Of a stretch of DNA of 38,431 nucleotides, positions 205 to 34,400 are shown piece by piece. The stretch spans positions 126,267 to 164,697 of the forward strand of contig WELB01000269.1 in NCBI GenBank assembly GCA_009602725.1, given 5' to 3'. The notes beneath the pieces are model-generated. The model was given only the letters and a program-made list of their open reading frames with translations. It was not told the DNA's origin and made no database searches. The position numbers and the translations under genes are program-made. This DNA is from Spirogloea muscicola (lineage: Eukaryota > Streptophyta > Zygnematophyceae > Spirogloeales > Spirogloeaceae). The stretch's first letter is position 1. Every line of letters starts with the position of its first letter.

Positions 205-734
205 GCTCTCGCTGGGCGCGGACGGCCAGCCCCATACGCGCCGCGCCGACGGGACTGGTCGCCATCCCGCCCGGCGGCGGTCCCCGCATCATCGCTGACG
301 TGGTGACAACTGACTGCATCGACTCCGCCAATCCCACCAGATCGGCGTCGTTTGCAGGGCACGCGGTCGGCCGGGCGGCCCGGGGCAAGGAGCGAAAATA
401 TGCTGATCACCCGGTGGGGGATGAATTCGCGGCCGTGGCGATGGAGGTACACGGGGCTTTCGGCAGCCGCTGGCTGGATCTCATTCAGCGGCTTGCCCGC
501 CAGGCCATTGACCGGCGGCCGGGTCTGCCAGGGGCGATGCCCGGCTTCAACGCTGCCGGTTCGCTCCCACAACTCTTCCGCATGCGCCTGGCCGTATCGC
601 TTCAACGCTCCCTTGCCCACGCCGTCCACACGCGCGCAGGCCGTGCTATGGCCGCCGCCTCTGGGTCACGGCGGAGTGCCTCTTTCCCTGCAGCGAGCTA
701 CTCAGACCTGATGTTGCTCACTCGTGGGTACTGA
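201..734 (+). pseudogene. C-terminal fragment of a LINE-type ORF
   Basis: The frame is open from about 201 to the TGA at 732-734, roughly 177 codons, with no credible start codon of its own. Recognisable blocks are GKERKYADHP (K..KY motif), then EVHGAFGSRWLDLIQRLA, then RMRLAVSLQRSLAHAVHTR, and the end SYSDLMLLTRGY. From memory, the order KxxKY, a short E..G..W region and a basic R.R.S.ALQR helix is typical of the C-terminal part of non-LTR retrotransposon polyproteins in algae and protists. The same order is found in the copy at 24850-25223, and the beginning of it at 38371-38431. It is a truncated fragment, not a host gene. Confidence 0.55.
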
Positions 735-897
735 GCTTTCCTCTGCATCGTTTCTGTGTTCTGCACTGTTTTGTAGTGTAGTCCTTTCTCCGGCTCCTCT
801 TTCTTCGCCTTTGGACATCGTCCATTCTTTTTTGGGCTGGCTTTGCTAGCCCCTCTTCTCTATGGGCGCGCACTTCTCTCTCTCTCTCTCTTCTTCC
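205..897 (+). mobile_element. 5'-truncated LINE-like element (copy 2, tail family A)
   Basis: This copy starts directly where copy 1 ends. It holds an open frame to 734 and then a 3' tail of about 140 bases. The tail has the shared block TTGTCCATTC, a hairpin with stem GGCTGG/CTAGCC near 837-855, the string ATGGGCGCGC, and a short CT run (about 878-894) at the end. 5' truncation with a conserved 3' end is the hallmark of target-primed reverse transcription. The clade of LINE is not identified. Confidence 0.55.
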
Positions 898-14822: not shown

Positions 14823-15005
14823 TTTTGAGCTACTCTGACCTGATGTTGCTCACCCGCGGGTATTGAGCTTCCCGTGGTTCCGTCGTGTCTAGTTGTCTAG
14901 ATGCCTAGCTGTGTGTTTCCCGGCACCTGTTGTGGCTCTTTGATGTTTGTCCATTCTTTTTTGACGGGCTTCTGCCAGCCCCTCTTTTCTGTGGGCGAGC
15001 TACAG
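14823..15005 (+). mobile_element. 5'-truncated LINE-like tail upstream of the JmjC gene
   Basis: This copy begins with codons for SYSDLMLLTRGY and stop TGA 14864-14866. A tail follows with TTGTCCATTC, an imperfect hairpin (GGGCTT/CTGCCAGCCCC near 14966-14984) and GTGGGCGAGC. It is an insertion about 200 bases upstream of the divergent JmjC start. Confidence 0.6.
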
Positions 15006-16047
15006 CTGCTCTCTTTATTAGCAGCCGCATACCTTCTTCAGAGGACCAGCAGATCGCCACTTGGCTCAGCCTTACAGACGCAGATCTGCTCATGACAGCA
15101 CACAGATATCAGACCAGCACAGCCTTCGCCCTCACTCAGTGGGTGGCGGCCATAGCTAGGGTGCACAGTGGCAGCAGCGCGGTCGCCTCAAATTCAGGGT
15201 TAAGCTATTGTGCCTGGGCAGCCCTTTTCCCGTTTGAGCTGCTCCCACGGCCCACTAGACTGAGACATTTGGTTTTGTAAGCACTAATTCCTCAAAACAT
15301 TGAGTTAGTTAAGATGGTTTCCCAGCCTAAGTTGCTGAAAAAACATACCACTACAATCATCACTTAAACACCAGCACTTTTGCTCCTGCTTAGAGATTGT
15401 TAACAACTTCGTGGCTCGTGCAGGGTTGAGGGTCAAGACGTTGGGCTAAGTGGTGTCCAGTATAGCACGGATGTGGCTGCCCCTGGTCTGTTCGCTGCCG
15501 CCCCCAATGGTGCCCATGAGCCACTCCGGCTCCCTGCCCCACTTCAGTCAGAGAGACGGACTGCAAAGCACAAAAAGCACGGCCTGTACATCCAAGATTT
15601 CTAAGAAGCTTATAAGCTCCTCCTAAGAGGAGGGGGCTTGCAGATTGCAAGCAAATAAAGCAATGCGAGCGACTAGGAAGCAATGGGCTATCGTCTAACA
15701 GGTCAGACGGCCTCCGGATACGGAAGCACAGAGACCACAAGCTATCTAATTGAAGCGTGGGGCACAACCGACCACGACGTGCGTTTAGCACGACTTCCAA
15801 TCTATGTACAGAAGCAGGGCATCAGGTCTACATTAGCAGAAGAGATACATGACTGAATTTGTGAGCTGGCTAAAGAGGAAGTTCAAATCCTAGGTATACC
15901 TAAAAAGCTGTCGGTCATTCTACACCGGCTGTGCTAAAAATCACATAATAGAGAATAAACTTTGTGGGCAAGGTGAGTGCTGTGTCAGGTATGTACAGCA
16001 GCAAAGGGCTGCAACTTCTGTACAGGTTGGTGGTGGAGGCCAGCAAC
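15006..16047. other. intergenic DNA, no gene recognised
   Basis: AT/GC-balanced sequence without a convincing reading frame, RNA gene or repeat. It contains the 3' UTR of the minus-strand peptidase gene near 15900-16047. An open frame at 15390-15800 (-) has no recognisable domain. Confidence 0.45.
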
Positions 16048-19006
16048 TTAGCGCAAAGGTGGGGCGGTGGTGAGGACAGCCAAGGCGAGCGGGGCGTGAG
16101 CAGCAGTGTCTAGCTGGCGCTCAGCAGCGACGATGCAGGCATCGGCCAGCAGGCGAGTGACGACGGCCCCTTTCTCGGCGCCGCCACTGTTGAGCGATGA
16201 CGCAGGCTGTGCGGTTGGCATTGCTGGCGTCATGGTCGGCGGGAGGCCGCAGGCAGCGTCGGCGGCAAGCCCGACCTTGTCGATGGCGTGAAGGCCTGGC
16301 GACAGGTACTTGGCAACGGTGACGAATATGGCCGACCCGTCTGCGAGCTCGTACACGCTCTGGATGCGGCCCTTGCCATAGGTGGTCTCGCCGACCAGGG
16401 TGGCGCGGCCGTTGTCACGGAGCGCGCCAGCAAGGATCTCGCTTGCGCTGGCGCTACCGGCATTCACCTATTGATGCACCAAGCAGCAAGATCTGATGCT
16501 CAGCTTGTCATTACAGCCCGCATTTCCCGGGAAAAAGGGGCCTTTTAATGGCATGAGGGGATGCGGGAGGTCGAGCAGGGCCCAACCAGGACAGCAAGAG
16601 GCTGCTTGGTGAGGGCGTGGCCGTCTCCAGCGACCGTGATGCGCTGCATCCCCCCGTGTCTGTCGACCGTCACGACAGCCGTAGCAGGGCCGTCCAGCCA
16701 CATGCCAGCAATGTCCAGGCCTGCTTTGACTAGTCCGCCCTGTGAGCAGCAGGTAGGAGGGGGGAGGGATGATAGAGGTCAGCTTGCGCGACAGTAAGAG
16801 AGAGGTGAGCAAACCCCAGGCAGGACATGGAAGAAGGAAAGGAGAGGAGAGAGGAAGGAGGGTAGGGAGAAGATGGAGGGGGGAGAGCCTCACAGGGTTG
16901 TCGCGGAGGTCCAGGATGTAGTTGGTCACACCCTGCCGCTCGAGGCCGGCCAGTGCGCGCGCCATGTCTGCAGCCGCCGTCTGTGCCACGCCCAGCATCG
17001 CTCAGCCTCAAGCAAGTATTGACTTGCTAAGTGAAAACCAGGCGAACTGGGTACTCGGGATAGGGGGTTTGCATCAAAGGGGGGGGTGTGCCTGTGAGAA
17101 GGCGGCAAGGCGGATGTAGCCGGTGCGCACGTCGGTGCCCTGGGGACCGGCATGCGGCAGCAGGGTTGCAAACACGGGCGACATGGTGATCGTCTCCCGC
17201 ATGAGCTCCACCTGCCGGTGGAGGACAGGTGGTGGCATGAGCAGGTGGTGGCATTGCATGTCAAGGATCAGAGGAAGCAAGATGGCTGCACACGATGGGA
17301 GTCGACAAGAGAGCGAGCATCAGAGGAGAGAGGTGGAGGAAGGAGGGGAAGGCTGACCTCCTTGAGCTCGCTCACGCTCGTGTGCTTGTCATCCTACCCC
17401 GCCATAGCGCAGCCGCCGCCAGCACAGATGCAGCGTCAAGAAGAGATAGCAGAGGATGCACGGGACTGGAGGATTCTGATGCCTGATGCCTGCTAGAGCG
17501 TACCACCTTACCATGCGGCGCAGCGTGAGAGTGACCAGCGTCCCAGCGTGGCCGCGTAGCCGGCCTGCGGCCTCCTCACCGGTGACGCCCTTGAGCTTCT
17601 CATCTGGGAGCCGCAGAGACAGCGCAGCCGAATGCTGAGCAACGACTGCTCCTGCGTCGACTGGGTACATGGCCTTGACAGAGGAGGAAGGTGGGATGCC
17701 GCACGATTGATCTGCAAGAGCTCGTCGCCGGAGAGGATGCCCGCGCGATCCGCAGGGCTGCCCTCGATTGGCAGCACAACAACCTGTGCAGCCCAGAAGG
17801 GCGTGAGAGGGGAGAGAGGAGGAAGCGAGGTGAGGAGTGGCCTAAGCTTGTGCCAGGAAGATCAAGCAAGGACAAGATCAGACGCGCAGGAAGTGCAGTA
17901 GGGTGTGCAGATCGGTGACCCACAAGGCGACCGCTCTTGGAGTCGGAGGAGATGAGGAGGCCAACGCCGTCCATGGCGCCGCGGTTGGCAATGCTGAAGC
18001 TCTCATACTCCTGCAAAGTGCCGGCAGCAGCTGCAGCGGCTGCTCAGACTACGACGGCAGCAGAATATGATCTGGTATGCACTTGCAAGGAAAACGCATC
18101 GCGAGCATCCGCGAAATCTGCGATCAAGGGGGCGCTCGCCTCGGGGTTGACGATGCGCGTGTAAGGGTCGTTGAGCGTGGCCAGCATGTCCCGGATGCTG
18201 TTGTGGACCTTGTCAGGCGAGTCAACGGCGGCAGTCCCCACCAGCAGGTCTCCCAGCTTCGCGTCCCAGTCTGCATGTACGGCTTACTCAACGACTGTCA
18301 GTGCCGCCGCCTCATAACCCATCAGCGCGTGGTCTTCAAGGTGGCATCAGGAGATGTCAATGGCAGAAGGAAGGGAGAAGGAAGGGGGGACCAGGCAGCA
18401 CCGCAGCAAGGAGAAAGCCGGATGGACGAAGAAATTACTTCACTGGAAATTACTTCAATACGAGTGTATTTAAGTAATGGAAGGCCAAAGTGGCCAGGTA
18501 CTAACGGCAAGCACATCCGATGGCATTCATTACCACTGCCAATTGACTCGCTCGGCAACCACGGGTCAACACATGAAGGTCGCTGATCGAAGGCGAGAGG
18601 CGATAAAGTGGAGAGTGGAGGGTGCAGCGCGCACTCTGGTGGTTGAAGGTGGGGTCCACAAACGCCTCCCTCACGATGCCCCACGCCTCCACCAGCGTGC
18701 GCTGAAGCGTGCTCACCTGCGGCAGCGCACCCAGTTCCCAACACCCCAATCGCTGTGATCCGGCAGCGCTAGTTCGTCTTCCAGATGGTGGCCTTGGCTC
18801 TCGCACAGAGCAGAGCTTCCGGGCATCGGCGGCAGCATGGCGGCGAAGGCGATCAGAGGAGCGGGCTGTGGCAGACCTCGGTCAGAGACGGCTCCCGGAG
18901 CACGACGCTGTACTGGTCCTCCATAGCGGCCAGCGCGGCCGGCCCTCTGGCCACCAGGGCGCTCGCGGCGCAGGCCAGGCCCGCGCCGCGCAGGGCGGCG
19001 CCCCAA
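16048..19006 (-). CDS. C-terminal processing peptidase (S41, CtpA-like), 5' end missing
   Basis: Tail-specific serine protease of the CtpA type, which in chloroplasts trims the D1 C-terminus in the thylakoid lumen. Exons in transcript order: about 19006-18877, 18716-18635, 18270-18083, 18010-17924, 17783-17705, 17603-17512, 17211-17092, 16980-16894, 16739-16587, 16467-16048; phases agree. The visible N-terminus has a hydrophobic Ala-rich stretch ending in GPAALA, like a lumenal targeting peptide. [17 protein letters not shown] follows, then a PDZ domain ([10 protein letters not shown] to [19 protein letters not shown]), the [14 protein letters not shown] motif, and the catalytic dyad: Ser in NAGSASASE and Lys in TYGKGRIQ. 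The intron between 17092 and 16980 needs a GC donor. The first exon runs into the N at 19007, with no start codon or transit peptide visible, so the 5' end is lost or displaced. Confidence 0.87.
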
Positions 19007-19080
19007 NGGCTAATGGAAAGCTGTTAGCTGGGGGCTCCGTCCCGCCGGCGCGCCAGGTTCAAATCCCGAATCCGGCTCCG
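19007..19080 (+). tRNA. tRNA-like sequence, incomplete or pseudo
   Basis: Just after the N, positions 19008-19022 look like a D arm and A box (GGCTAATGGAAAGCT, pairing GGCT with AGCT). Positions 19056-19066 are a good B box (GGTTCAAATCC). The spacing of about 45 bases is right for Pol III promoter boxes. I cannot fold a convincing anticodon arm, and the 5' acceptor strand does not pair well with ATCCGGC, so an isotype cannot be given. It may be a real tRNA cut by the assembly gap, a tRNA pseudogene, or the head of a tRNA-derived SINE. Confidence 0.3.
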
Positions 19081-19600
19081 CGGCGCGGCTGTGTTTGGCG
19101 GCCGCGGCGGCGCGGCATCGTCGGCGTCGGCGTCGGCGGCGGCGGCAGCGGCGGCAGCGGCGGCAGCGGCGATCAGTGGGAGGCCAGCGGCCGGGAGGGC
19201 GGGGACCTCCCTCCTCCCCCCGCCGGGCCCTCCCCCCTCCCCGCTGGGCCCTCGGTGGCGTTACCAGGCCTCTCGCTTCGCGGCCCCGCCGTGCGAAAGC
19301 GGCTCTTGGCGCGCGGGCGGGCCTCTTCTTGTCGGTAGAACCCCGTGGAGACTCCGCGGTCCATGTCCCCCGCCGTCAGACGCCACCGGCCGTCGTCGGC
19401 GGGTGGGCCCAAGCCGTTGCGGCGGGGGCTGCACATGGGCCGTGCGGTCGAGTGCGCCGTTACGCCCCTCCTCCGACCCCGTGGGTCCACGTGATTGAGG
19501 GAGCCCCCGGGCGCCGTCAGCGCGCCGGCCCGCCACCCGTGCCTGACGCGATGACGAGGTGACGCGGTGATGCGTGCGCCCAGTGAAGTGACTCCTCCCT
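19081..19600. repeat. GC-rich block with GGC repeats
   Basis: It contains GGC/GGCGGCA microsatellite (about 19129-19172) followed by very GC-rich sequence. It could hold the missing 5' exon of the peptidase on the minus strand, but no transit peptide with a matching splice junction could be shown. Open frames in all directions are typical of GC-rich shadows. Confidence 0.4.
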
Positions 19601-20430
19601 CCAAGAAAGCAAGTGCTCGCCCACTGAGGTTACCAACTACCCGGGGCTGCCCCTCCTGGGCCTTCCCGCCCTTTCAGACCTTGCTTTGGATCTTCCTGAT
19701 AGCGAGAGATAGACTCCTTCAGTAAGGGTGTGTGCTGGCCTGTCTCAGCCATCGGAGATGTGTAAGAGTCGGATTGTCGAAATGTCGGCCACCGCCCTAC
19801 TATGCGAGATCGCTTCCCCAGCCGCGGAAGGCCTCGCAGCCTTCCACGGCTGCACACGCCTTGCATCTGCGTGCTGGATGTGCCCGGTGCTGCCGCATCG
19901 GGCTACTGGCGGGGCGGCTCCTATTCTGGCTGCTGCTTCCAACTTGCGGCGGCTGGGGTTTACTGAGCAGCCCATCCTTAGTGGTCCTGCTTTACGGTGA
20001 TTATGCACTTTCCGACCCTTCTGGACCTTGTTCCTTGTCTTGTGGGCTACCTTTCTAGAATCTCGCTCCCTCTAGAAAGCTGCTTCGTTCTTTTGCAGGC
20101 CAGGTCAGCAGCTTCTCCCTTGGTCATTGTCGACCAGGGGCCCATGTGGATATGGGCCGTGCACTTGGAATCCTCTGATCGACATCTGTAAGTTTGCCAG
20201 TCTCACTTCTATGCGTGTCTGCAATCTGCAAAAATGGTGAGCTTTCGGCCGCACTACTGTGAGCCCTTTCCCAACGGGAGCGGTAGCTAGTCGACGCCGG
20301 ACCAAAAGGTCGAACAGAGTGGATGATGAAGCGACGGCGCACAAGGCCTCCCCAGAGCAAGAGCGTCGCTTCAATCAGCAGGACTCGAGAGAAGGAGTCT
20401 TCCAAAGGGTGCAACGGCTGCCAAGGGCCA
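19601..20430. other. unassigned region, possible remnant LINE tail at its start
   Basis: 19603-19630 resembles the inverted LINE 3' end (AGTGCTCGCCCACTGAG versus AGTGCTCGCCCATTGAG elsewhere), but the hairpin is not well preserved. The remainder shows no recognisable gene. Confidence 0.3.
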
Positions 20431-20439
20431 GCCCACCAG

Positions 20440-20700
20440 CGTTAGACAAGGTTGAGCTGGCCTCTCCCAGCCATTGCCTTACCTTGAAGAGCTGTTTTCT
20501 CTTACTGTACATTCTCTAGAAGCGTGTTCATTATTTGGAGCTGATTCTCAGTATTCATAGAAACAACTCCCAAGAACAGCTCTGAAAAGAGCAATGTAAG
20601 GCAATGGCTGTGAGAGGCAACCCCAAGTAACGAACTAGCTCTGAAAGGAGTGCACAGTACAAGAAACTGCCTCAGTGTAAGTCAGTGGCTGTGAGAAGTG
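20440..20700. repeat. imperfect inverted repeat of LINE-tail-like sequence
   Basis: The left arm, about 20459-20500 (containing CAGCCATTGCCTTAC and GAGCTGTTTTC), matches the reverse complement of about 20576-20620, with about 70 bases between. The left arm contains the family B hairpin (GGCTGGCC...CCAGCC type). A third, diverged direct copy of the right arm lies near 20640-20700. Probably head-to-head insertions of related tails. Confidence 0.5.
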
Positions 20701-20796
20701 AGCTCTTCCAAAGGGGGCGAGGATGTGACAAGCCAGCCCGGAAGGGATGAACAGTAAGGAATATGCAAGTCCAGGTCTAGGAGGAGGTTGTCGGGA

Positions 20797-20885
20797 GGAA
20801 AGCGCGGCCAGATTGACTGGTGGCTGGGAAAGGCCAGCCCAAAAGATTGGACAAGGTCTGAGGGAGCTTGAGTGTCGGGAGAGAG
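20797..20885 (-). mobile_element. inverted LINE-like tail (family B)
   Basis: It matches the reverse complement of the tail at 115-204: GCGCGGCCAGATTGACTGG, the hairpin GGCTGG/CCAGCC, then TTGGACAAGGTCTGAGGGAG. Only the 3' tail is present. Confidence 0.6.
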
Positions 20886-21204
20886 AAGGCGCGTGGTGCG
20901 CATGAATTGAAAGGGTGGCCAATGCAAGCCCATATATTTCTCAGGCAAAAGCTAGTGCAATGCAAGTGTTAGGAGGGTTGTTCGACATCCAGGTTGACGG
21001 GGCTGTCGTGAGATATACCGTCGGTGGCTAATTCCTGTCGATCTGACAAGGCATGTGAGGTGGCTGCACACGTGGACATTTGAGGCACGTCACCTATCAG
21101 TTGAATGTGAACCAGGAGTCGTCAACACGGCGGATTCGCAACCACGGCACCTCCAGCTCGGCCCCAGTCAGGTAAGTGAGCAGGTGCCGCCGCGTCATCG
21201 ATCG

Positions 21205-21345
21205 ACATGAAGAAAGTGCTCGCCCATTGAGAATAGGGGCTGGAAAAGCCAGCCCAAAAATGAATCAACAAAGGACGAGAAGGGGGCCAGGGGAAGCGCT
21301 AAGAAAAACAAGCGCACAAAGAAACAAAGCAGCTACGGATCACTC
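21205..21345 (-). mobile_element. inverted LINE-like tail (family A)
   Basis: On the minus strand it ends in ATGGGCGAGCACTTTCT, preceded by the hairpin GGGCTGGC/GCCAGCCC. It then extends over a block containing GGAAGCGCTAAGAAAAAC and ACGGATCACTCAG. The whole block recurs at 38098-38158 plus 38296-38370. The element starts at about the ORF stop (CTGAG), so only the 3' UTR was copied. Confidence 0.6.
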
Positions 21346-21536
21346 AGAAACCCCTGCTAAGCAGCCTCAGGTCAGAGACGCTACATTGGCAATCGGTCTT
21401 CATCCTACCATCCCAACCGATCAACAACAGCGCCAACCTGCCGTTGAGCCGTCGATATGGCATCAGCGAGCAGTCCCCATCCTTACCGCTCGAACCGCTC
21501 AAAAGGCCTCAAAGCGGAGCCGAAAAGCCCCAAGGC

Positions 21537-22014
21537 AGCCTGGTATTATTAGATCAAAACAGCCACTGGTGCTTCAGACATTTTACTTGGAGTTACCAAG
21601 CGTCCTTTGAGCATTACCTTCAATGCACATGATCCAAGTCTGTGTACTTCATTTTCCATCTTATGCATGAATACCCGAGCTACAACCTATGATATTATGC
21701 TCGGCACAGAAATCTTATTTCCTCTTGGTTTCGGTATAGAGTACTATGCTGAGGTGGCCTGGTACAGACCAGGTGGGAGACTATCTGGTACTCGTAAAGC
21801 TACATTACCTTTATCAGAGGGGTGGAGTCCACTGAGTCGATCCGCTAATATTGGTATTGTGATTGTGGATATAGCTGGACATGAGCCAGTTACTCCGGAG
21901 GAGCTTTCCTCTACAGAAGAGAAGGACTTTCCTACCGACCCACAGACCGTCGATGACTTTGCAGAGGCGGAGGAGGCCTTCACTGAACTAAAGGAGGACG
22001 GACAACAAGGGTAA
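21537..22014 (+). pseudogene. retroelement aspartic protease region
   Basis: LVLLD (Asp codon at 21552-21554) fits the start of a retroviral-type protease active site. After a frameshift the frame reads ATGASDILLG, then ATTYDIMLGTEILFPLGF and WYRPGG, which match the gypsy protease and following linker. The frame ends in an acidic segment at a TAA (22012-22014). The active-site triad is disrupted by the frameshift, so it should be inactive. Confidence 0.6.
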
Positions 22015-22019
22015 AGGGC

Positions 22020-23395
22020 CCCAGGAAGGTGTTCCTGCTGTACCAGATCCCAATCGAGTTCAAGACGTGGTGGTCGATGGCCAAGCCCGGGGTGAGACAT
22101 CGCAGCCTCCAGCTGGCCCAAAGAGGACTTGGAACATGGTTGTCCTTGATCCGAATCAAGCCAAGCAGCAGGCAGGCCTCATACGTACTGTGCCGAACTT
22201 GGGTATGCCTGGTACCTATCTGGCAGAGCTGCAGGTCGCCAAAAATCACGAGATGATCCGAGCTGCGCGCCTATGCTTTCCAGTGGTGGGCCACATGCGA
22301 GCTGACGAAGCGTGGGCTGAGGAGTCTCTGACGGCACAGCCTCCCATAGTACACTCGAATGCTGGCACGACTTGGTGGATCGTATGGGGATATTTTACCA
22401 TGGAATCATTGACTGGAATTTGCCATCAGAGGGCATTGTCATGGTGGAGTTGTTTGGTGGCACCGCGATTGGGTTGAAGGCAGCGCGCCAGAGCCACATT
22501 AAGGTGGCTAGGTACTTCTACATTGACATTGACGACGAAGCTCGTGAGACCGCGCAGCACCACATCAACCTTCTGCTCCAACAATACCCGACATTGCTTC
22601 AACCATCAACCTTTGTCCTAAGGGATACAATGTTACCACAGGACATTACCAAAGCAGCCCAGCCCGTAATGCTTCGCCGCTTTCCTCCAGTGGATTTGCT
22701 TGTGGCAGGCTTTCCCTGCCAGGGTTTCAGCGGTATGAGCAAAGGCCTGGGTTTTGCAAAGAAAGACACGGCTCTCTTCATCCCCATGGTTAAACTTATG
22801 CACGCGATACAAGCAAGGCAGACCCGACCGGTTGGTTACAGTATTGAGAGAGTTGAACCTCGAGAAAACCAATCCTCGGTGCGGTTAAATTTTACAACCG
22901 TTTACGACATCTTTGGGCCTCCTACGATATTAGATGCAGCTTTTGTTGGCTCGCTTGCAGATCGCAGGCGTGTTCAGTAGACAAACTTGGCACTGGCGAA
23001 GATGATGCAGCGCTGCATTGACAACCATAACCGGCCTCCTGGATTATATGCCTATATGGCGCTGGATGCTGGCAGAGAAGTTATTCCAGTGTACGGGTCC
23101 AAGCATTAGCACTACCTTCAACCAGCCAGGTTCGGGACAGTGTCAAATTTCCCACTTTAATGGCGACGGTGAACTCCGAGGCTTTCAATGCGCACTATGG
23201 AAGAAAAGGGCCAGGCATGGTCCGAGTTAAGGGTACCAACTTCTTTCAGGATCCCAATTCACGAGAGAGGGAGAGAGCCATGGGCTACGAGCAAGGAGAG
23301 ATTACTCTACTTCATCACTGATTAAGAACCCATGTCAAACTAACTGGGCAGGCGTTTGATGCGAACTCTACGTGTTGGGTATTGTGTATTCAGTG
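22020..23395 (+). pseudogene. C5-cytosine DNA methyltransferase domain of the retroelement
   Basis: Motif I is VMVELFGGTAIGLKAA (22438-22485, AdoMet site), motif II FYIDIDDEA, and motif IV LLVAGFPCQGFS with the catalytic Cys in PCQ at 22714-22722. Motif VI appears as IERVEP (22843-22857), where the family has ENV, so the key Asn is changed to Arg. A motif VIII-like stretch, FVGSLADRRRV, is followed by an in-frame TAG (22978-22980) where YW is expected. The target-recognition region is damaged by stops. The C-terminal pieces SRERERAMGYEQGE (23256-23300) and LTGQAFDAN (about 23340-23366, motif X type) remain. So a full-length enzyme once existed, roughly 400 residues. The N-terminal part (22060-22370) is in another frame, implying a frameshift near 22370. 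Not functional as it stands. Confidence 0.82.
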
Positions 23396-23699
23396 TCACC
23401 AATGCCATTCAGGCTAAGAGGAAGGTCAAACAACAGCTTTACAACTATGATCCTCGGAGCGTTTCTGAATCAGACATCAGTCTTCTGAAATTATATGATC
23501 TGGTTGTTGAGAACACAGAGTACTCTTGGACAAACACAGCCTATCAGCCAAGTTTGCCATTCTTTGACAGGGTATCAGTGGCAGCTTGGTCCTGATCTGA
23601 CTGCAGAAGACAACTCCTGTATGGTCAAGTTGTTGAATGATGAAATTACCTGATTTTATTTTCATCGGCTGATCTGGGTACCTATGTTGGTTCCAGATT

Positions 23700-25599
23700 T
23701 CAAATTCAGCTTATTGATGAACGACCTAGTTTCCGTTAACGGTATCCATTATCTAAGGTTGAGAATGACTTCATAGATAACTGTCAATAGAATAGATAAA
23801 TGTCAAGAATTGTTAGCCATAGGGTTGATACAATTCTCTGAAAGTTCTTATGCTGCCTCAACAGTTCTGCCAGCCAAGAAAGATGAATTTGGCAATAACA
23901 CAGATAGGAGAATGTGTGGTAATTATCGTCGACTCAATTTGTCTACACCTCTCGATCGATATCCTATGCCTACCCCTGATGAGATTTTTGCCTGTGTGGG
24001 GAGCAGCAAGATCTTTTCAGTATTAGATCTTAGGCAGGTATTAACCAGATCGATATTGAGCCTGGAGACAGGCATAAAATTGCTTTCTGGGGGGCCCGTG
24101 AAGGTGTTGGAGTTCTTTATGAATGGATCAAAATGCCATTTAATCTCAAGAATGCTCCCATTATGTCTCAGCATGTTATGGACATGGTATTGAGGCATGT
24201 TCCATTTGCACGCTGTTACATCGATGATATATTAGTGTTCAGTAAGAATTTTGCAGAACACTTGTACCATATTGCACTTGTGCTTGATACTATACAACAG
24301 GCTGGACTCAGATGTCACCCAGGCAAATGCCGTTTTGGCTTGTCTGAAGCTACCTATTTGGGGCACCAGATTTCAGACAAAGGTTTCTCCACAAGCTGCC
24401 AAAGTGCAGGCTATTCTTGACATCCCTCCTCCAACTAATCTTCAATCGTTGCGATCTATCCTTGGCTTGGCTACTTATTATCGAAGATTCATCCAGAGTT
24501 TCAGTTCCATAAGCTAGGCCTCTGACTGATTTGCTCAAAAAGGATGCAACATGGCAGTGGACTACTTCTCGTCACCAAGCATTCAATCAGCTTAAACAGG
24601 CTCTCACTCAAGCTCCAGTCCTGAGACATAACTTATTTACATACAGATTGGAGCAAGGTGGGGATGGGGTGCTGTTTTGACTCAGCGTGATGAGGACAAC
24701 CACCAATATGTTATCGCTTATGCAAGTCGCAGTAACAATTCTGCACTTTTCTACGTATCATGGGGGAATGCTTGGCTGCCATGTGGGCCGTCACACACTT
24801 CCGACCGTACCTCCATGGGCATATAAAGGCCCAGCATCAACACACATTGCTGGGCACGCAGTGGGCGGAGCAGAGCAAAGAAAACTGCGGCATTACTCCG
24901 ATTACCCCCAATGCGATCAACTCCTGCCAGCTGCAATCGACATCTTTGGCTGTCTGGGTCCTCGCTTCCACACTCTGCTTCAAAACATTGCCAATCTAGG
25001 CTACACTCGACGCGCAGATGTGTTTCCGGCTGAGATGGGCTTGCCAGCTGCATATCTGTCGCTCTTGCGACGTCGAGTTTCGGCCTGTTTGCAGCGTGCT
25101 CAGGCTAGTGCCTTGCACCAGAAAGCTGGGCGAGCTCTAGTAGGTGGCAGAAGGGCTCCGTTCCTGGCATCTAGTATTCATGCATCGAGTAGTGACCTTT
25201 ATGTTTTGACCCGTGGTTATTGAGCGGGTCAATCTGCTGTAGGTTATGTAGATTTTTAGATGTGCTTGCCTTTGTACCTGGCCATTTGGCCTACATTTCT
25301 TTCTAATACACGAACTTTCTCATGGGCGCTCGTTTCAACTGATTACCTATCATCAGCCTTTACAATGGCTATTGAAGACTGATGAACTTACAGGAAAATT
25401 CACACGTTGGGCTCTTCAATTGCAAGAGTATGAATTCAAAATTGTTCATTGTCGCGGTCTTCAGAATATGGATGCGGATGCTCTAAGTTGAAACCCAACT
25501 TCCGAGGCCATTCCGATCAATTTACCCACATAATTATATGTCAGAAACCCATGTTCCGTTGTCGATTGGCTCATGCTCTTACGACATCTACACATGATG
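23700..25599 (+). pseudogene. reverse transcriptase and RNase H, broken
   Basis: The reverse transcriptase shows YAASTVLPAKKDE, CGNYRRLN, FSVLDLRQ, then YIDDIL with the catalytic YxDD at 24217-24228, and LGHQIS. Frame changes occur near 24040-24120 and 24370-24400, and a stop near 24515. RNase H follows (AYASRSNNS, GECLAAMWAVTHFRPYLHG). It is cut at 24820 by a LINE fragment and resumes at 25321 with FQLITYHQPLQWL and HCRGLQNMDADALS, ending at a TGA (25488-25490). The region to 25599 continues toward the integrase. Confidence 0.8.
24821..25320 (+). mobile_element. 500-bp LINE-like fragment nested in gypsy RNase H
   Basis: It is flanked by the 7-bp duplication CATGGGC (24814-24820 and 25321-25327). 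Inside is a frame ending at TGA 25221-25223 with the same blocks as copy 2: GHAVGGAEQRKLRHYSDY, a basic RRRVSACLQRAQASALHQK helix and SSDLYVLTRGY. A tail of about 97 bases follows, with a GGCC-ATTT-GGCC hairpin (25280-25291) and the end AACTTTCT. Taking out the insert plus one duplication copy restores the RNase H frame. The tail sequence is diverged from families A and B, so this is a third family. Confidence 0.8.
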
Positions 25600-26139
25600 T
25601 AATGAACCAGCCGTTTGGTTAAGCCACATGGCTCTGTTTGCATTACATGACCGGCTATTTGGGACAAGTGGGCCCGCCAGGTGGCGGGCTGGCTTGCCGG
25701 GCAAGAGGCCCGCCCAGAGACGGGTCCAGCCCGTCCAGAAATACTCCTCGCCAGGATCCGCCCGTTCAAGGGAGGATCTTTGGCCCGCCGTCTGGCAGGC
25801 CATGGGGCGACCCGCTCACACCCCTGGAAGGGGGGGGTGGCACAGGAAAGCACGAAGAGCCTTGGGGCTGAGGCTCGAGAGAGTTCGAACCGGTGAAGCC
25901 CAGGAGCAGCCTTGCCGCTGCTCGCCGCCGCAGCCGCCGCCGCACCTTGCTGCGGGGCCTGCTGCGCCGGCCTGCGCCCAGGAGGTGGAGTCGCCGCCGG
26001 ACGGCGGCGCCACGGGGCCTGTCTTCCGCTGCGCCTATGCGCTAGTGCTTTGCCTGTGTAGTGGGTTGGTCCCTAAACCCCTACAGCCGAACTCAAGAAG
26101 GACTGCTCACCCTAACTGCGTGTGTAGGGCGAGGTTCCT
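25600..26139 (+). mobile_element. 540-bp GC-rich insertion of unknown class in the gypsy element
   Basis: It is flanked by a perfect 11-bp duplication TACACATGATG (25589-25599 and 26140-26150). The retroelement frame reads through (STHDDHSVGALEV) when the insert is ignored. The insert is much richer in GC than the surrounding element, has a GCC-type tract (about 25920-25945) and no protein domain. A tRNA-like pair, TGGCACAGGAAAGC (about 25837) and AGTTCGAACCG (about 25877), suggests a SINE, but the B box has mismatches. The ends share only GAACC in inverted orientation, too little to prove terminal inverted repeats. No poly-A tail. Confidence 0.75.
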
Positions 26140-26150
26140 TACACATGATG

Positions 26151-27660
26151 ACCATTCTGTAGGCGCTCTTGAAGTGTCTAATGATGACTTCTTTTCCAAA
26201 GACACCTTGTTGGATGCACCAGTTTTTCTATACCTACAAACTGGCACATATCCTGTTGGTTCCACAACCATGCAGATCGGATTAAACACCGAGCTCGTCG
26301 TTTTGTGTGGAAGGATACTCGGCTCATCAAACCTGATGTTGAGTACGGTAATCCAATTGTTCCACCTCCAGCAGTGCGAAACCAATTAGTGCACGACGTC
26401 CATACGTCACTTGGACACTACGGAATCAAGAAAACCGTCAGTTTGTTGGTCACGAAGTATTGGTGGTCTGGTCTCACAGATATGGTGAAACACGTCCTAT
26501 CTCAATGCGAGGAATGTTATAGCATTCGCAACACATTCTCGTTAAAGTCACCTCAACTTCATGGTCTACCCATACAAGGACTGTTCTATCGGTGGAGTTT
26601 AGACTTAGCTGGTCCTCTCAAAAAGGGAGATGAGAGACCTAATGTCCTCATAATGATTGAGCACTTCTCCAAATGGGTTGCAATGGTCATCATCCCGAAC
26701 AAGTCCAGCATATATGTCAAAGAAGCTTTTGTGGAACAGGTGTTGTCACGATTCGGGGCTTGTGCCAAAGTGCTCACCGATCAGGAAACTGAATTCCAAG
26801 GTGAATTTCAGCGTCTCTTAGACCAGACTTTCATTGATCATCGGCTTACATCAAGGGACCATCCCCAAGCTGATGCTTCAGCCGAACGCACGGTCCAAAT
26901 TATCAAACGTGGCCTCACTAACTACGCTTTTCGCGAAGGTGCGGAGAGATGGGACAGATTTTTACCATGGCTTATAATGGGTTACAGGATGTCCAAACAA
27001 ATTTCTCTATCGGCTTTTAGTCTGTATTTTCTACTTTATGGATGTCATCCTGTGATTGCTGTTAGTCTTGGTCCTGCTTCCACAGAGATAGTCAATCTCG
27101 ATGATCCAAACATGTGGCTCAAAGTTTGCACCGAACGGAGCATCTTCATCAACCGACATATGCCTATTGCTTTAGACAATTTGCGTATCGCTCAACATCG
27201 TGACACACAGCGTTATGCTACTATTCGAAGTGGTCGATATCAACCCAAACATCCAACGATTTTCTGTCAACGATTATGTCTATCTCCGGGTGAAACCTCA
27301 AGATGCACTGGATGCTTCCACTGGTCCGTTTATATGTAAGGTTGTTGGCAAGAACAATTCAGGCGTCGTACCCTTTACAAGGCTCGTGTGGCAGGGAATG
27401 TCAAACCATGTTCAGAATATTACACCCCGTCACCTCACTAATATTGACCCTACCATCAATCCTACTAGACAGTGGATCTCAGCACATTTGCCATGTGAAA
27501 TCTGCCATCGGGAAGACCAATCAGCAACACTGCTGTTGTGTTCTGCTTGCAACAAAGGGTGGCATCTTCATTGTCCTTACGCCACTACTCACCAGCATAC
27601 CTTCCCATGACTGGTTCTGCACTGCTTATATGGTTGCTGACCCAACTCTTCGGCCTAATC
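26151..27660 (+). pseudogene. integrase with C-terminal PHD finger
   Basis: The H2C2 zinc-binding domain (HTSLGHYG, then CEECYSIRN, 26390-26535) is followed by the integrase core. Its catalytic D, D, E lie in WSLDLAGP (26602), VLTDQETEF (26779) and DASAERTVQ (26884), the last two 35 codons apart. After a frameshift near 27180-27240, an SH3-like tail (FSVNDYVYLR) leads to a PHD finger: CEIC, LLLCSAC, GWHLHC (27494-27574). A further frameshift follows, then LTPLLTSIPSHDWFCTAY, where the last zinc-binding Cys is Tyr (27627-27629). The integrase core alone is open for about 300 codons, the best-kept part of the element. Confidence 0.8.
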
Positions 27661-27674
27661 AGGACTCATAGTGT

Positions 27675-27752
27675 GGGGGGGGGGGGGTTAAAATCAGCAA
27701 GTCATCCATCACAAGCTCCAGTTATTCATATTATTCCATCGTGCTGATTTTA
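27675..27752 (+). repeat. 13-G run and 11-bp inverted repeat at retroelement 3' end
   Basis: Thirteen G residues (27675-27687) are followed by TAAAATCAGCA (27689-27699) and its exact reverse complement at 27742-27752, 42 bases apart. The G run could be a polypurine tract with LTR sequence after it, but no matching 5' LTR was found. Confidence 0.5.
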
Positions 27753-27925
27753 TGTAACAATGTACTTTCATTTCTCGCCTTTTCGTTTTCTTTCATAATG
27801 CGGACGTTGCCAACCACGTGTACTCTGACACATCTGCCCTCCCGACATTCCCTAGTAATCGACACTGTATGGCATGACAGGGCCCACTTTGCCCCACATG
27901 CGCAGCTTGCCGTCGACTTCATCAG

Positions 27926-28015
27926 AGAAGAGCTCGCCCATAGAGAAGAGGGGCTGGCAAAGCGAACCCAAAAAGAATGGACAACGTCCAAAGCCAAAGA
28001 AAAGTGTGCCGGAAA
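27926..28015 (-). mobile_element. inverted LINE-like tail (family A)
   Basis: On the minus strand it ends in CTATGGGCGAGCTC. The hairpin here is damaged on one side (GGGTTCGC/GCCAGCCCC). TTGTCCATTC and GCCTTTTGG-like sequence follow as in copies 2 and 3. Confidence 0.55.
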
Positions 28016-28249
28016 AGGACCACTGAAAAGCACGAGATGGTGAACCGACCCCCACGATTTGGCGATTTGCGAAGGCGTCCACCTTTCAAGGGGCCCCGCC
28101 ACCGAGCCGCCAGCGTGTCGCCAGCGTGGCGCCTACATGGCGTCCACCTCAGTCCGACGTGGCGCCACTCCCCCCGGGGAGGGAAGCTCCCGCTGGCCCG
28201 CCTGCGCCGCCGCCGGGTCCTCCCCCATCGCTGCCGCAGCATTCCGCGC

Positions 28250-28301
28250 CGCCGCCGCCGCCGCGCTTGCCGCCGCCGCCGCCGCCGCCGCCGCGACTGC
28301 C

Positions 28302-28352
<51 letters not shown>

Positions 28353-28353
28353 N
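28250..28353 (+). repeat. CCG microsatellite, 49-base A run and N
   Basis: GCC units up to about 28295 are followed by 49 consecutive A (28304-28352) and an N (28353), about 140 bases before the start of the FUSC-like gene. Such an A run inside GC-rich leader DNA is unlike anything else here and may be a sequencing or scaffolding artefact. Confidence 0.85.
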
Positions 28354-28493
28354 CGAGCCCGTCGACGCGGGGAGCCGAGGCGCCCGGCTGCTCGCGCGCA
28401 GCTGCGGGCCTGGCGCACGGAGCTTGCGCTGCCGCGCAATCGCGCGCCCCGCCGTCTCCTCGTCTCGCACGCTGCCGCTCTGCCGGGGCGGCG

Positions 28494-31400
28494 ATGGCCC
28501 GGTCCGTGCACTGGCGGCTCTTCCAGCGGCGCTGCGCCGTGGCCCTGCGCACCGGCCTGGCCGCGCTCCTGGCCGGCGCCCTCGTCTCGCTGGGCAGCCT
28601 CAGCGCCTGGATGGTCGTCCCCTTCTTCTCCGCCGTGCTGGCCATCCTCATCACCGGTGCGACGTTCACTTCCTCTGGCTCGACTCTGGCCAGGACTTGA
28701 GCCTTCTTCTGCTTCTGCCGTCGCTCTCGAGGGCGGGCGACAGACGGGCAACAGCTCCCGCGGCTGAGTCAGAATGATGCGGAATGACGACTTGCAGAAT
28801 GTCTGCAAAGGGGTAGTGCTATCTCGGAGGTGCTTGTCGGGCTTGCTGCTCTTGGGTCCCTGCCAAGATTAGCATCCTCATCGAAGTCCCACTTCTTTAG
28901 AGCTTGACAGCAACCTCGGCTGTTCGATTCACGGGTGTCACTCGGTGACTGCTTCTGTCACAGATGCGACTCTGGGGAAGGCCCTGAAGAACGCTGTCCT
29001 GCTCACTTGGGGCTGCTTGGGAGCAGCGGTGAGCACTCCCCCGCTGCTGCTAATGACTCAAATCTGCACTGAGGTTCTCATTGAGTACCTGAAAGGATTG
29101 GAATGTGATAGACATCATGGACACAGCACGCTCTATCCTCCCAATCTTCAGAGTGTTTCCTGTCCCAGAACCTTCTATGTGCTTTGTGCTCATAGACATT
29201 GTTTTCACGACAATAACAGAGCGTCTGCGCACTGAACTGCTGCCAATGTCAGCCGGTAACAATATTGCACTATCTTGTGCTCAAGAATGTGCCAGTTGAC
29301 GGCGCTGCTGGCACGTCATATACTTGGTCCATCTCGAGGCGCAATGCTTAGTACACTGGCTGCAACCAGCTTCTTGTTCTCCTAGTACGCTCTCTTGCCT
29401 TGCCACCAACGTGGATAGATATGCATCATGGCGCATCATGGCTTGCTCACATCGGGTATGCATCAGTCTCGTCACTTGCGTGTCAATCCACTTGATTTGC
29501 TAAATCTAGTACTTTGAAATGGTTAATTAAGCTCCTGGTGCCACTCTTGGGAGCTATGGCTCATCAGCCCCCCTCTACACTGCCAGCCCGGACGTGGACG
29601 TGCTGGTGAAGAAGATTGCTCTGGCAGTTGGGGCCATCACATATGTCATGTTCGCCTCTGTTCAGTCCACCCCACTGCTCTTTCCCCTTCGTCTGGTGGG
29701 TGCTTTTGCTTATCTGCTACTGAAACAGTCTTTAGACCTTGGCGCACTGATCAAGCTTTATCTGTGAGTAATAAGAGATAAGACTGATGAAGATAAGTCA
29801 AGCTCTGCCCTCTACTCATAGTTCAGGGTTACGTCACTCTTGTGCACTAGACTTGTGTGACTTCCTTGGTTCTTATATTGGGACCCCCCAGAAGCTTGGC
29901 GGTGAGGCTCAGCAGTGAGTGCAATGGGCCCAACATTGTATCTCTGTGAAGCTCACTGAAAGTCAGGCTATAGAACAAAATGTGTTGCTGTGGCTGCAGT
30001 GTGCAACTGGTCTGGCTGGTGCAGCGTGCGCGATCGTAGCGATGCTCCTGCCTATTCCACAGCTGGCATATGTGGAGGTCAGCACTCTTAGCATGTCTTT
30101 TAAGCAAAACAGCTCAGCCGAAAGGATTCCTCCTTTCCTCTGATCAGATCAGATTGCCGTCTACTGGACCTGATTTCGCTGTCCACGTGTCTGCTCCTTT
30201 CAGCAATGCTGATCAGATTTCTGTCTTGTGCCATGTGCGAGCAATTTTGCAGGTGAAGAAGCGCTTGCTGTTTGCAGCCCAATGTGAATCTGCTCTCCTC
30301 AAAACCCTACTGGTAAAGTGAAATTTTATGGGAACCCTCTCCTCTTGGAAGGACTAACCTGATCTTATTCACCTTCCGCAATTCCATCCAGTCTTGACTA
30401 TAAAGAGCACTCATCTGGCATAAACTCATTTTCAATCTGTGCAGCCTTGGTTAGTCAATTGGCACCAAAATCAGACACGCATAAGGCAGCAATGTACAAA
30501 TGTCATGTTCTCCCGTCACATAAACCTGAGATTTAATCTTCCAGGATGCTTTTGGGGCCGATGATGCTCGGGCACTTGCCTTCATTGAGATGCATGTCAA
30601 GATTCTAAGCAAAAGTGCATCCTCAAATCTTGTCAGCTTGAAGGTACTTTGTAAGTGCAGCTTCTAGGCATCAAGCAAGTGCAGCTTTGAGCTGCATGCA
30701 CAATTTGCCGAGGCCTCATGCAGCAAATTTACATACTGGAGCATCTGGTGCACAGCTTTACCTGGTGCTATACAAGTATGTGCGCAGCATATATGAATTC
30801 CTTACTATTGTCTATGCATCGGCCAAAAATCATCTAGGAGCGCGAGTTGGACCTGAGCTGGGAGCTTTGGTTGTATCAGGGACCCCTTAAGTCATTTCGG
30901 CGTATTATGAAGGTGTCAACCTCAACTTCAGCAATGTCGTCTCTTGCCGCTTGCTTTGTCTCATCGTCCTTAATTGAGCGCATGAAATTTGTCAATTTGT
31001 CCAGCTAAGATAGCCACCGAGCCTGACCTTCTATGGCAAAGATCTGCCTCTGAGAAGGTATTGGAGATGCTGCTTCTGATCAAGAAGCGCAGGCAAAGCT
31101 CTACTTAAAGAGTTGCCCACCTAAAATCAGTTCTAATCTCATCCAAATTTGTCTACACTTTTCCTCCTCCCTTGCAGTTGCTTGATGCTCTGATGATGCA
31201 CTCAGCTGGTATGGAGCTGGCTCTAGCTAAAGGAGAGATTCTCCACAGTCCTCAGGCATTGCGCTGCCTCTTGCGGGAACCTCTCAGTGACCTCTCCAAG
31301 TTTGGAGCGCTTGCTCTAGCAGCTGCCGTCAATGACTTTTGGAAGCCCCACTGTAGGTTCCATGATCCCTGTCAAAGTCCAACTTTTGCAATCTCGTAGG

Positions 31401-34400
31401 TATTGGCCGGTGTATTGAGAATGAAGCAGCAATAGCCTTCGTATAACAGGAGTTCCATATTTAGCAAGTTCCTCTTGGCAAATTGCAAGCTGCATTGATG
31501 CACAAATGCTTCTTGCCCACCTTATGAGCTAGCATGCCTCTGAAGCAGCTACTATGTTTTTGTTGTGCTTGGCTCTTCTTGATCCACTTGCACTCCTCTC
31601 TGCAGCCAGGGTGAGGGCAATTGAGGTAGTGAGGCTAGGAAACGAGCTACTGCAACAATTCAATCACGCACTCAGGTGGGCCCGGGAAGTAGCTTACTAC
31701 CATCTACCAGCTGACAAGGAGGACAGTCCCGTTCACAAGCCAGCTGCACAGGGTACCGACCAACATGAGGAGGAGACCGCGCCCACGAACACACCCAGGT
31801 TTGGTCTACATCTTCAGCTCATTAACTTGTCAGAGGCAAAAGGGACATGTGTGAATCATGCAATTTCAGTTGTTGTGCAGCCCTCTTGCTGCGCCTGAAC
31901 TGCCTGCTGGGGCTGATGACCCAGGCAGCAGGCAAGAAGCTGGGCCTGATTCCTGAAGACACCGTCAATATGTCTGCTAACAGCAGTTCTCAGCGTGGCT
32001 TCTCAGTTTGGTGGATTCGCAATTTTTCATCTTCAATGCGAAGCACTTTGTGATGGAAATACTGCATTTCCTGGAAGAGACAGCTTTACCAGGAGAGCAT
32101 TCTGGTGAACACGCTTGCTTGTCAGCATCAGCAGTGTGGTTTGTAACATGAAGGTTGTAACAAAATATGAAGGCATTGCACAACTTCCACAACCTTTTGA
32201 AAAGGGCGCTGCAATGTGTTTGAGGACATGGCAGACTGTTCACTGTGTACAGTTAGTTGATGCTAGAGACTTGACTAAGATCTGGGCTTTTCCACTGTGT
32301 GCCAGGCAAGCAAAGGGAACTTCACCTGGTGGATTCGATGTACAACCTGCAAAACCCTGAGACTCCAGTTACTGTCAGGCCTGAGGTGGAGGAGCCCTCA
32401 ACTCTAGGGTCATCCAGCCATAATTCAGCTGGAGCAGCAGAGACTCACTACTCCGAAGGTAGCAGGTGGCACCAGGCAAGGAGAAGACCACAACAGCCAT
32501 GGTGGACATGGTGGCAGGCGCGCAACTGGCCGCGGAAGGTGACCTTCAAGCTCAATACGAGACGGCTTAAGGTTGGCAACTTTCACTTGTCCCCGGCTCG
32601 CATGTCCACTCAAAGTTGCACATTGTGAGAAGTTGTTTTCAGCAGCAATATCATGTTGTAGGAGGATCTCTTGTGCAACATACACATATTTGAGAAATCT
32701 CAGAAAATCCACACAACTGGTGGTTGGTGTCTTATGATGATGAGTCTTTCTCTTTGAGATGATACTGCAGCCTCCAGCAAGACGTAGCAGGAGATGCTCA
32801 ATGTGCTTGACACGCTAGAATGTTGAGGTTGAGATTCTATCCTTGGGTTGCTGTGCAGTCTTCTGCAAAGATTGCGGTGTCCATGGTCATCTCAGCTATC
32901 TTGGGGGACCTCATCACCAAGCCTGGCTTCTGGGCTCCTGTGACTGTTGCGTAAGTATCGTGCGATTACATATTCACATAGTATATCCTCAAGTAGCCTC
33001 AGGTACAGGCGATCTTTCTTCACACTGCAGAAGACTCAATACACCAGATTGACCTTCATTCAGCCTGCAGGCAGGCTTTCATACGCAGTCGGTTTCCAGT
33101 AGAGTAAGTACGTCTTGCTGATATTGTGCTTACTGCACTCAGCTCTGATGACGACCCTGCAGGTTCGTCATAGGGGGACATCAGGGAGGTTCTTTTCAAG
33201 TGTCACTGCTGCGTCTCCAAGTAGGATCTCATCTTGCCTTCTTCGCCACTGGGCCTGGCTTTCCTTGAAATAATTGCAGATGATGCAATCTAGAAGATCT
33301 GAAAAGCCAACCGACATTGCAAGCAGGCAGCAAACTTATCAATGCAGCAATCGAATCCCACTGAGTTCCCTGCTTCGAGCCCTACAGGGGACAGTAGCTG
33401 GAGCTATTTATGGCTATCTTGCGATCCTGCTTACGCATCATAGTCAGTGGTTGATCCTTGCGGCGCTTGTTCCATGGGTGGTACTTTCTTCCTACATACG
33501 ATACAGGTAAGAATTTCATGCCCATGCATGCCCTCCTTTTCTCTTTGTCTTTCAGCCATGCGTATAGTTGAAGCTTCACTTGTGACAGATAAGGGCTCTT
33601 TGTTGCTGGGCATTGCTAGGCAATGCACAATGCTTGGGCATGTCATTGCATCTGTGCTTCTTCTCACTGATGGACAACTGAGACAGTGTGGTTGATTGTT
33701 GTGCAGTAAGGCTGTCGGCTATGCTGGGATTGTTTCAGCTTTCACAGCTGCCATTATCATGCTTGGATACCGAACAGCTGCACTGAACGTACACGACTAT
33801 GCTCTTAATCGCATTTCTGAGGTATTAGCCAATCTTTTGCACCATGAGATATACATATAAAGTGGCCTGCTTAGCCCCGTAGCAAATGCCTGATCGTTCA
33901 TTTGTCCTGCAAGGGCCGCCAGAGCGTCCCCATCATTAGCATGGAGCGCAATATGAAAGGTTGCTTTGCTGCTGAAAGAATGAGTGACATTGGCTTCAGC
34001 TTGGCTTCTGTACTAGTCATTGAATACTTTCTGTTCCGAGGGCTATGTACACCTTTTACAATTCTTTAATATGGCAGACATGCACAGGAATCACGTGCTT
34101 CATTGTGGTAGAGGCTCTGCTTTGGCCCCACCGAGCAGTCAAGCTGGTCAGGCAGGAACTGGTGTCTTGTCTATCGAACGCGAGGCGTTGCTTCTCAGCA
34201 ATTGTTGCCTCCTACATGGGCCAAAATTGTTCCAGGTTTATTGATTTTGTTCGACCCGGTCAAGGTGGTGCTTGAGGTGATCTGGTCTTCAGCAGTTGTT
34301 CTGTAACTGGAGGTTGCACCGCTGCACCTGACAATGTCTTAGGAGCAGAATTGTCATATTGTCGTCCATAGCCTTGCACACAGTATTGAAGTCCACTTCT

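Follow-up and report, generated by a model that had tools for sequence, protein, structure and literature searches.

A C5-DNA methyltransferase of the DNMT3 type has been described within a Gypsy element of the alga Klebsormidium nitens, KnitGypsy-Dnmt3 (de Mendoza et al. 2018, PMC5890265). The text of that paper places the enzyme in the Pol open reading frame (ORF) and has no mention matching a PHD finger or a chromodomain, and a legend gives the repeat order A-coding-B-A-B with Gypsy domains. Retrotransposon DNMTs are reported there to be able to methylate CG sites de novo, and effects on the host methylome are discussed (PMC5890265). Two Symbiodinium retroelements with C5-methyltransferases, SymbioDIRS-Dnmt3 and SymbioLINE-Dnmt, are a tyrosine-recombinase (DIRS) element and a LINE and not integrase elements (PMC5890265). 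Why a genomic parasite carries the type of enzyme that is used for its own silencing is a puzzle. We have analyzed a 38,431-nucleotide (nt) stretch of Spirogloea muscicola (contig WELB01000269.1, positions 126,267 to 164,697; hereafter the window, a part of contig C269 in the 153 Mb and 471 contigs searched), which holds a decayed Ty3/Gypsy-type copy with a methyltransferase. A light-harvesting exon of the same genome has LHCII chains as its best PDB matches, with moss and spruce complexes among the leading entries; three light-harvesting genes seem to be present in three copies each and others in two or five, which, together with the assembly size, would suit the triplicated genome of this streptophyte alga. 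No RuBisCO large subunit was found in the assembly. A sequence-only reading of the window had reported this element and had cited earlier captures in Klebsormidium and dinoflagellates; the Klebsormidium precedent is a Gypsy element, whereas the dinoflagellate ones sit in the LINE and DIRS elements just named (PMC5890265). On balance, we favor the view that the window copy belongs to a multi-copy Ty3/Gypsy-type family in which a DNMT3-type enzyme lies in the gag-protease frame, ahead of a predicted leaky stop codon that would keep the enzyme abundant and reverse transcriptase (RT) and integrase scarce.

The element is real, in that Pfam matches to a methyltransferase, RT, RNase H and integrase lie in the order first claimed, all on the + strand. 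With the window methyltransferase piece as query, at least 153 matches were found in the same genome. Outside the window, the succession protease, methyltransferase, RT was seen at 10 further places (tblastn of window pieces, 38 loci, some of which overlap). In 27 of the 40 best RT matches of the family, a methyltransferase piece on the same strand lies no more than 2.5 kb upstream, as against 0 of 40 other Gypsy RT matches that were hand-picked as a control from weaker rows of the same RT list; this count drew on the majority of the methyltransferase pieces listed, but not on every one. The enzyme had been read as a part of the element situated between protease and RT, which is borne out by the same order in other copies, and no boundary of the methyltransferase's own was seen. 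A host or bacterial methyltransferase gene inserted by chance into one dead element would be the simplest rival, and the window copy alone, being broken and holding other inserts, would leave room for it. This rival is rejected, however, because the order recurs at 10 other places and the upstream piece accompanies 27/40 family RT matches as opposed to 0/40 controls. The same enzyme family also occurs in pol proteins of other sources, and we regard chance insertion as extremely improbable. A search for fuller copies in the same genome yielded several with long open frames. The window copy is dead, as had been said, with frame changes along the element, stops in the methyltransferase and two inserts, but the family does not belong only to the past of this lineage.

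In the L039 copy, a first ORF of 1411 amino acids (aa) runs without interruption through a zinc knuckle, protease and methyltransferase; a single TAG follows, and then a 1037-aa frame in the same phase with RT, RNase H, integrase and a PHD finger. The L040 copy has a 1153-aa single frame with zinc knuckle, protease and methyltransferase. The L039 ORFs show the Ty3/Gypsy order, in which RT, RNase H and the rve-type integrase score over the Pfam cut-off and the protease below it; the L039 zinc knuckle match is also below the cut-off. The methyltransferase thus does stand before the RT, as the sequence-only reading had it, but in the gag-protease ORF ahead of a conserved stop and not in the RT-integrase ORF.

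A stop occupies the homologous codon behind the methyltransferase in 29 of 33 alignable copies (18 TAG, 11 TGA, 0 TAA). L076 (match short of the site), L074 (unalignable) and L029 (the same copy as L069) were excluded from this count; L050 and L070, each with an adjacent inverted partial copy, were counted twice, and counting them once gives 27/31. Some rows are close relatives and hence not all are independent. Where the alignment starts at the first residue, 19 of 23 rows have a stop at the site, as compared with 9 stops among 1955 other nearby codons. The non-stop exceptions are GGA (in the window), TTA, GAA and TAC, the last being a Tyr codon at position 5345 (minus strand) of L040. The codon after the 29 stops is CAA in 26, and the context is CAR-YYA in 22/29 and CAR-NBA, the yeast readthrough consensus, in 25/29. 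CAR YYA is the context that is required for readthrough of the tobacco mosaic virus stop and that directs readthrough in plants, where UAG in this context reaches 32% and UAA or UGA are decoded less, yet still decoded (PMC2754532). Tyr is also the residue at the readthrough UAG of this virus in plants (PMC2754532). The likeness to this type of leaky stop (UAG CAR YYA) consists of CAR followed mostly by YYA or by NBA, and the differences are the retroelement setting, the TGA in one subset of copies and the predicted status of readthrough here.

We predict from this pattern that the stop behind the methyltransferase is leaky. A rival explanation holds that it is either a product of decay or the true end of the protein, with RT and integrase made by reinitiation or from a spliced or separate mRNA. 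Decay is rejected as its origin because such a concentration, with 29 of 33 copies affected at a single codon and 9 stops in 1955 codons nearby, would not be expected of it. A true end would agree with the continuous methyltransferase-RT proteins of some other sources; against it, the second ORF of L039 is in phase, and both the choice of stop and its context suit readthrough. Taken with decay, we judge this rival improbable, and prefer the leaky stop.

As for the enzyme itself, a profile of eight sequences has DNMT3A as its best PDB match (1.5e-24), followed by HhaI (4e-11) and DRM (9e-11), and gave no PDB match to DNMT1 up to 0.01. The relative P0005 was modelled with AlphaFold at modest confidence (predicted local distance difference test 61), and Foldseek with this model returned DNMT3 entries for all 50 listed matches. 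The catalytic Cys of motif IV and the ENV of motif VI are present in 6/6 rows of alignment A1, while the window has PC but ERV. On these profile and fold searches, rather than on a rooted tree, the enzyme is best classed as DNMT3-type; DNMT1, DNMT2 and bacterial enzymes are less close to it. An enzyme of DNMT1 or bacterial type was considered and set aside, as the profile search favors DNMT3 in a comparison that has DNMT5 and the ChloroDNMTs (PMC12344493) outside it. The ratio of nonsynonymous to synonymous substitution (dN/dS) is 0.14 for the methyltransferase (one pair, L027/L036) and 0.09 for RT (one pair, L031/L064); the other pairs, with dS of 2 or more, were left unused. In P0007, P0008, P0046, P0060, P0129 and other relatives, the motif reads AGWECQ, in which Glu replaces Pro before the catalytic Cys.

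The methyltransferase-linker region also forms long, spacer-free palindromes of up to 2154 nt, with arms 88-95% alike. Palindromes of at least 200 nt were found in 17 of 74 loci, at about 12 distinct places, among them L004 233-2386, L016 1408-2772, L019 602-2089, L034 45-1330, L070 369-1551, L025 1522-2436 and L057 2657-3245. Substitutions outnumber gaps as differences between the arms in most listed loci. The palindromes may be snap-back complementary DNA (cDNA), hairpin loci for small interfering RNA, or an artefact.

The second ORF of L039 ends in a PHD finger (PF00628, 1e-9) that resembles PDB PHD fingers of KMT2, CHD4, PHF21A, BAZ2 and UHRF1 proteins, several of which read unmodified histone H3 lysine 4 (H3K4). 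H3K4 binding by the element's own finger is a prediction. Chromoviruses carry a chromatin reader behind the integrase, and gammaretroviruses use stop readthrough before pol. The family resembles the former in having a reader behind the integrase, but this is a PHD finger and not a chromodomain; it would resemble the latter in readthrough before pol, but with the stop behind protease and methyltransferase and not at gag/protease. In the protein P0125, the PHD finger lies between RNase H and integrase and not at the end.

A repeat search found no plain long terminal repeats in window 16000-33000, and the copy on C341, the one copy with both ends available, has split direct repeats instead, with A1 at the start and B1, A2 and B2 behind the coding part (302 nt, 98%; 234 nt, 97%). 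This one copy ends in TGTC...GACA with ACGT on both sides, a 4-bp target duplication, and its joined flanks align through the window repeat 24831-25284, which amounts to the empty site. The repeat inside the RNase H region of the window element (24831-25284) is another copy of the sequence into which the C341 copy is inserted. What looks like an insert lies inside A2 of the C341 copy. A dispersed short repeat in both orientations (window 412-877, 1060-1218, 14827-15000, 21206-21271 and 27920-28001) also occurs behind the C341 coding part, and may be the insert inside A2.

This family and KnitGypsy-Dnmt3 are both Gypsy elements of streptophyte algae that carry a DNMT3-type enzyme, and they have in common the A-coding-B-A-B order (in one copy here) and low dN/dS (Ka/Ks). 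The same kinds of parts, with a DNMT3-type enzyme in a Gypsy polyprotein, could mean that we have simply met KnitGypsy-Dnmt3 again, already described and with nothing new in design. The text of the 2018 paper, however, assigns the enzyme to the Pol ORF and does not mention a PHD or chromodomain, whereas the present family has the enzyme in the gag-protease ORF, followed by a conserved stop, and a PHD finger behind the integrase; this contrast is drawn from the paper's text (PMC5890265). We consider identity of design unlikely, though a serious contender. Among the listed relatives, K. nitens is represented by four pol proteins, with no methyltransferase. The kind of element is known, but none of the titles and abstracts surveyed described a conserved and probably leaky stop, an enzyme on the gag side, a PHD finger or a second placement of the enzyme in other green algae.

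The second placement came from database relatives. At 1e-10 the second ORF matches 1704 proteins; the named sources among the 120 matches listed are Klebsormidium nitens, Closterium, the liverwort Calypogeia, Haematococcus and Chromochloris. In 127 proteins (P0004-P0130), the methyltransferase lies before RT in 14, between RNase H and integrase in 20 and alone in 6, and is absent from 87, which may carry the enzyme in another ORF; 83 of the 127 have a PHD finger. Closterium (P0078, P0093, P0127) shows the first placement, before RT, whereas Haematococcus (P0129) and Chromochloris (P0123) show the second, between RNase H and integrase. In a quick tree built on 108 RT rows with no bootstrap, the 16 second-placement rows that it includes sit in one group of 25 with 9 rows that lack the enzyme and no first-placement row (Shimodaira-Hasegawa-like approximate likelihood ratio test, SH-aLRT, 98); four second-placement proteins, including P0129 and P0123, were too incomplete for this tree. 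The methyltransferase tree, which is unrooted, mostly separates the two placements and is compatible with one capture or with two. A scan of viral contigs with the pol alignment confirmed no relative.

The arrangement of the ORFs suggests a mechanism. Most likely, gag-protease-methyltransferase would be the major product, and ribosomes would pass the stop in a fraction of cases, which would add RT-RNaseH-integrase-PHD. Protease would release the methyltransferase, which would be packaged with Gag in excess over RT and would methylate the element's new cDNA at CG sites, either ahead of integration or shortly after it; new copies would then be marked on arrival, and the PHD finger would guide the integrase to chromatin with unmethylated H3K4. 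We infer readthrough, Gag-level supply of the enzyme and methylation of the element's own cDNA; the leaky stop would likely yield far more enzyme than copying machinery and serve self-marking of new DNA. A leaky stop that fixed how much methyltransferase is made per RT would imply that the element requires large amounts of the enzyme alongside Gag, which is a clear and testable claim. More tentatively, we propose a reader-writer pair for self-marking during replication, in which the DNMT3-type writer is supplied at Gag level through the leaky stop and the PHD finger is the reader; within this proposal, the writer stands at two places in two element groups and would therefore have been moved or captured more than once. 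The two green-algal placements and the PHD finger offer natural comparisons for the purpose of the enzyme.

The sequence-only reading had named methylation of the element's own copies or evasion of host control as possible uses of the enzyme, and both are kept here as hypotheses. Four copies have a CG observed/expected ratio of 0.58-0.62, lower than in the remainder of the window (0.74) and in five light-harvesting loci (0.77-0.90), and the depletion of the copies fits CG methylation. The enzyme might instead act in trans on host DNA or RNA, for example by shaping host silencing, and not on the element's own cDNA. DNMT3-type enzymes work on chromosomal DNA, and the 2018 paper discusses host-methylome effects (PMC5890265); position in the gag-protease ORF, on the other hand, would favor the particle, and CG depletion in the copies fits self-methylation, yet fails to separate the two readings. 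We hold action in trans to be a minority possibility and favor self-methylation.

Several observations weigh against a Gag-level, self-marking DNMT3-type enzyme behind a leaky stop. The CG depletion could come from host methylation, and the comparison was with the loci given above rather than with methyltransferase-free Gypsy copies. Protease matches in L039 and L040 are below the Pfam cut-off, and a single-sequence search puts HhaI (1e-6) above DNMT3A (6e-5). By the 2.5-kb rule, 13 of the 40 family RT matches lack an upstream methyltransferase piece; these may be truncated, too diverged or truly without the enzyme, although in one of them, C66, the piece abuts the RT directly and fails the rule only. 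Continuous methyltransferase-RT proteins from other sources have no stop at the site, since a single frame excludes one, for which stop loss, absence of a stop or spliced gene models are possible explanations. Second-placement relatives have the enzyme behind RT. Gag-level supply is therefore no rule of the wider group.

The window remnant itself spans about 21002-27718 on the + strand, with the 5' repeat (A) at its left end and the beginning of the first 3' repeat (B1) at its right, as delimited by blastn and tblastn with better copies; the core of the element had been recognized, but the span first proposed, 21537..27690, was too short. Gag is missing from it: neither of the two queries that include gag matched the window in that part. 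The 5' terminal repeat A is represented by a piece at 21002..21080 (80-82% identity to the C341 copy repeat) and by a second piece at about 21466-21530, found by comparison with the same repeat. The protease that had been read here is present as a C-terminal part (21551..21927; 62% identity to the L041 ORF and 39% to that of L039), with no Pfam match in 21553-22011; its homology starts at L039 ORF residue 683, behind the LLDTGAQ stretch, so that the active-site stretch is gone. The DNMT3-type methyltransferase, with stops and frame changes, occupies 22369..23526 by homology to L041 and L039 and by its motifs (Pfam DNA_methylase, PF00145, at 22321-22977, 8e-9). Its motif I (22444-22476), PCQ of motif IV (22708-22731), changed motif VI (22840-22860; ERV, where intact relatives have ENV), RERERAMGY (23262-23288) and GQAFDAN (23346-23366) were all found where the sequence-only reading had put them, and one of its stops sits where relatives have the W of WTNL. 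The codon aligned with the conserved stop of other copies is 23528..23530, here GGA followed by CAA ACA.

The broken RT and the start of RNase H follow at 23561..24817, with homology to L039 pol (RVT_1 at 24034-24417, 1.5e-15). An insert in RNase H, seen as a homology gap at 24818..25332, contains the foreign repeat that matches the C341 copy flanks by blastn (24831-25284), and the remainder of RNase H is at 25333..25488 by homology (RT_RNaseH, PF17917, at 25252-25488, 1.4e-7). A second, GC-rich insert, also seen as a homology gap, lies between RNase H and integrase at 25513..26134. The integrase, with zinc-binding domain and core, is broken and was placed by homology at 26135..27261 (Integrase_H2C2, PF17921, 2e-13, and rve, PF00665, 5e-8, at 26188-27336), and the C-terminal part of the second ORF at 27242..27574 has 54% identity to L039 and a PHD finger from about 27494 (PF00628 at 27176-27607, 4e-4, below the Pfam cut-off). 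Homology to the C341 copy ends with the start of the first 3' repeat, B1, at 27685..27718 (blastn), its left limit being approximate. All of these features are on the + strand. No tRNAs or Rfam families were found in the window. At 28304-28353, inside GC-rich DNA, 49 consecutive A precede a single N, perhaps at an assembly join.

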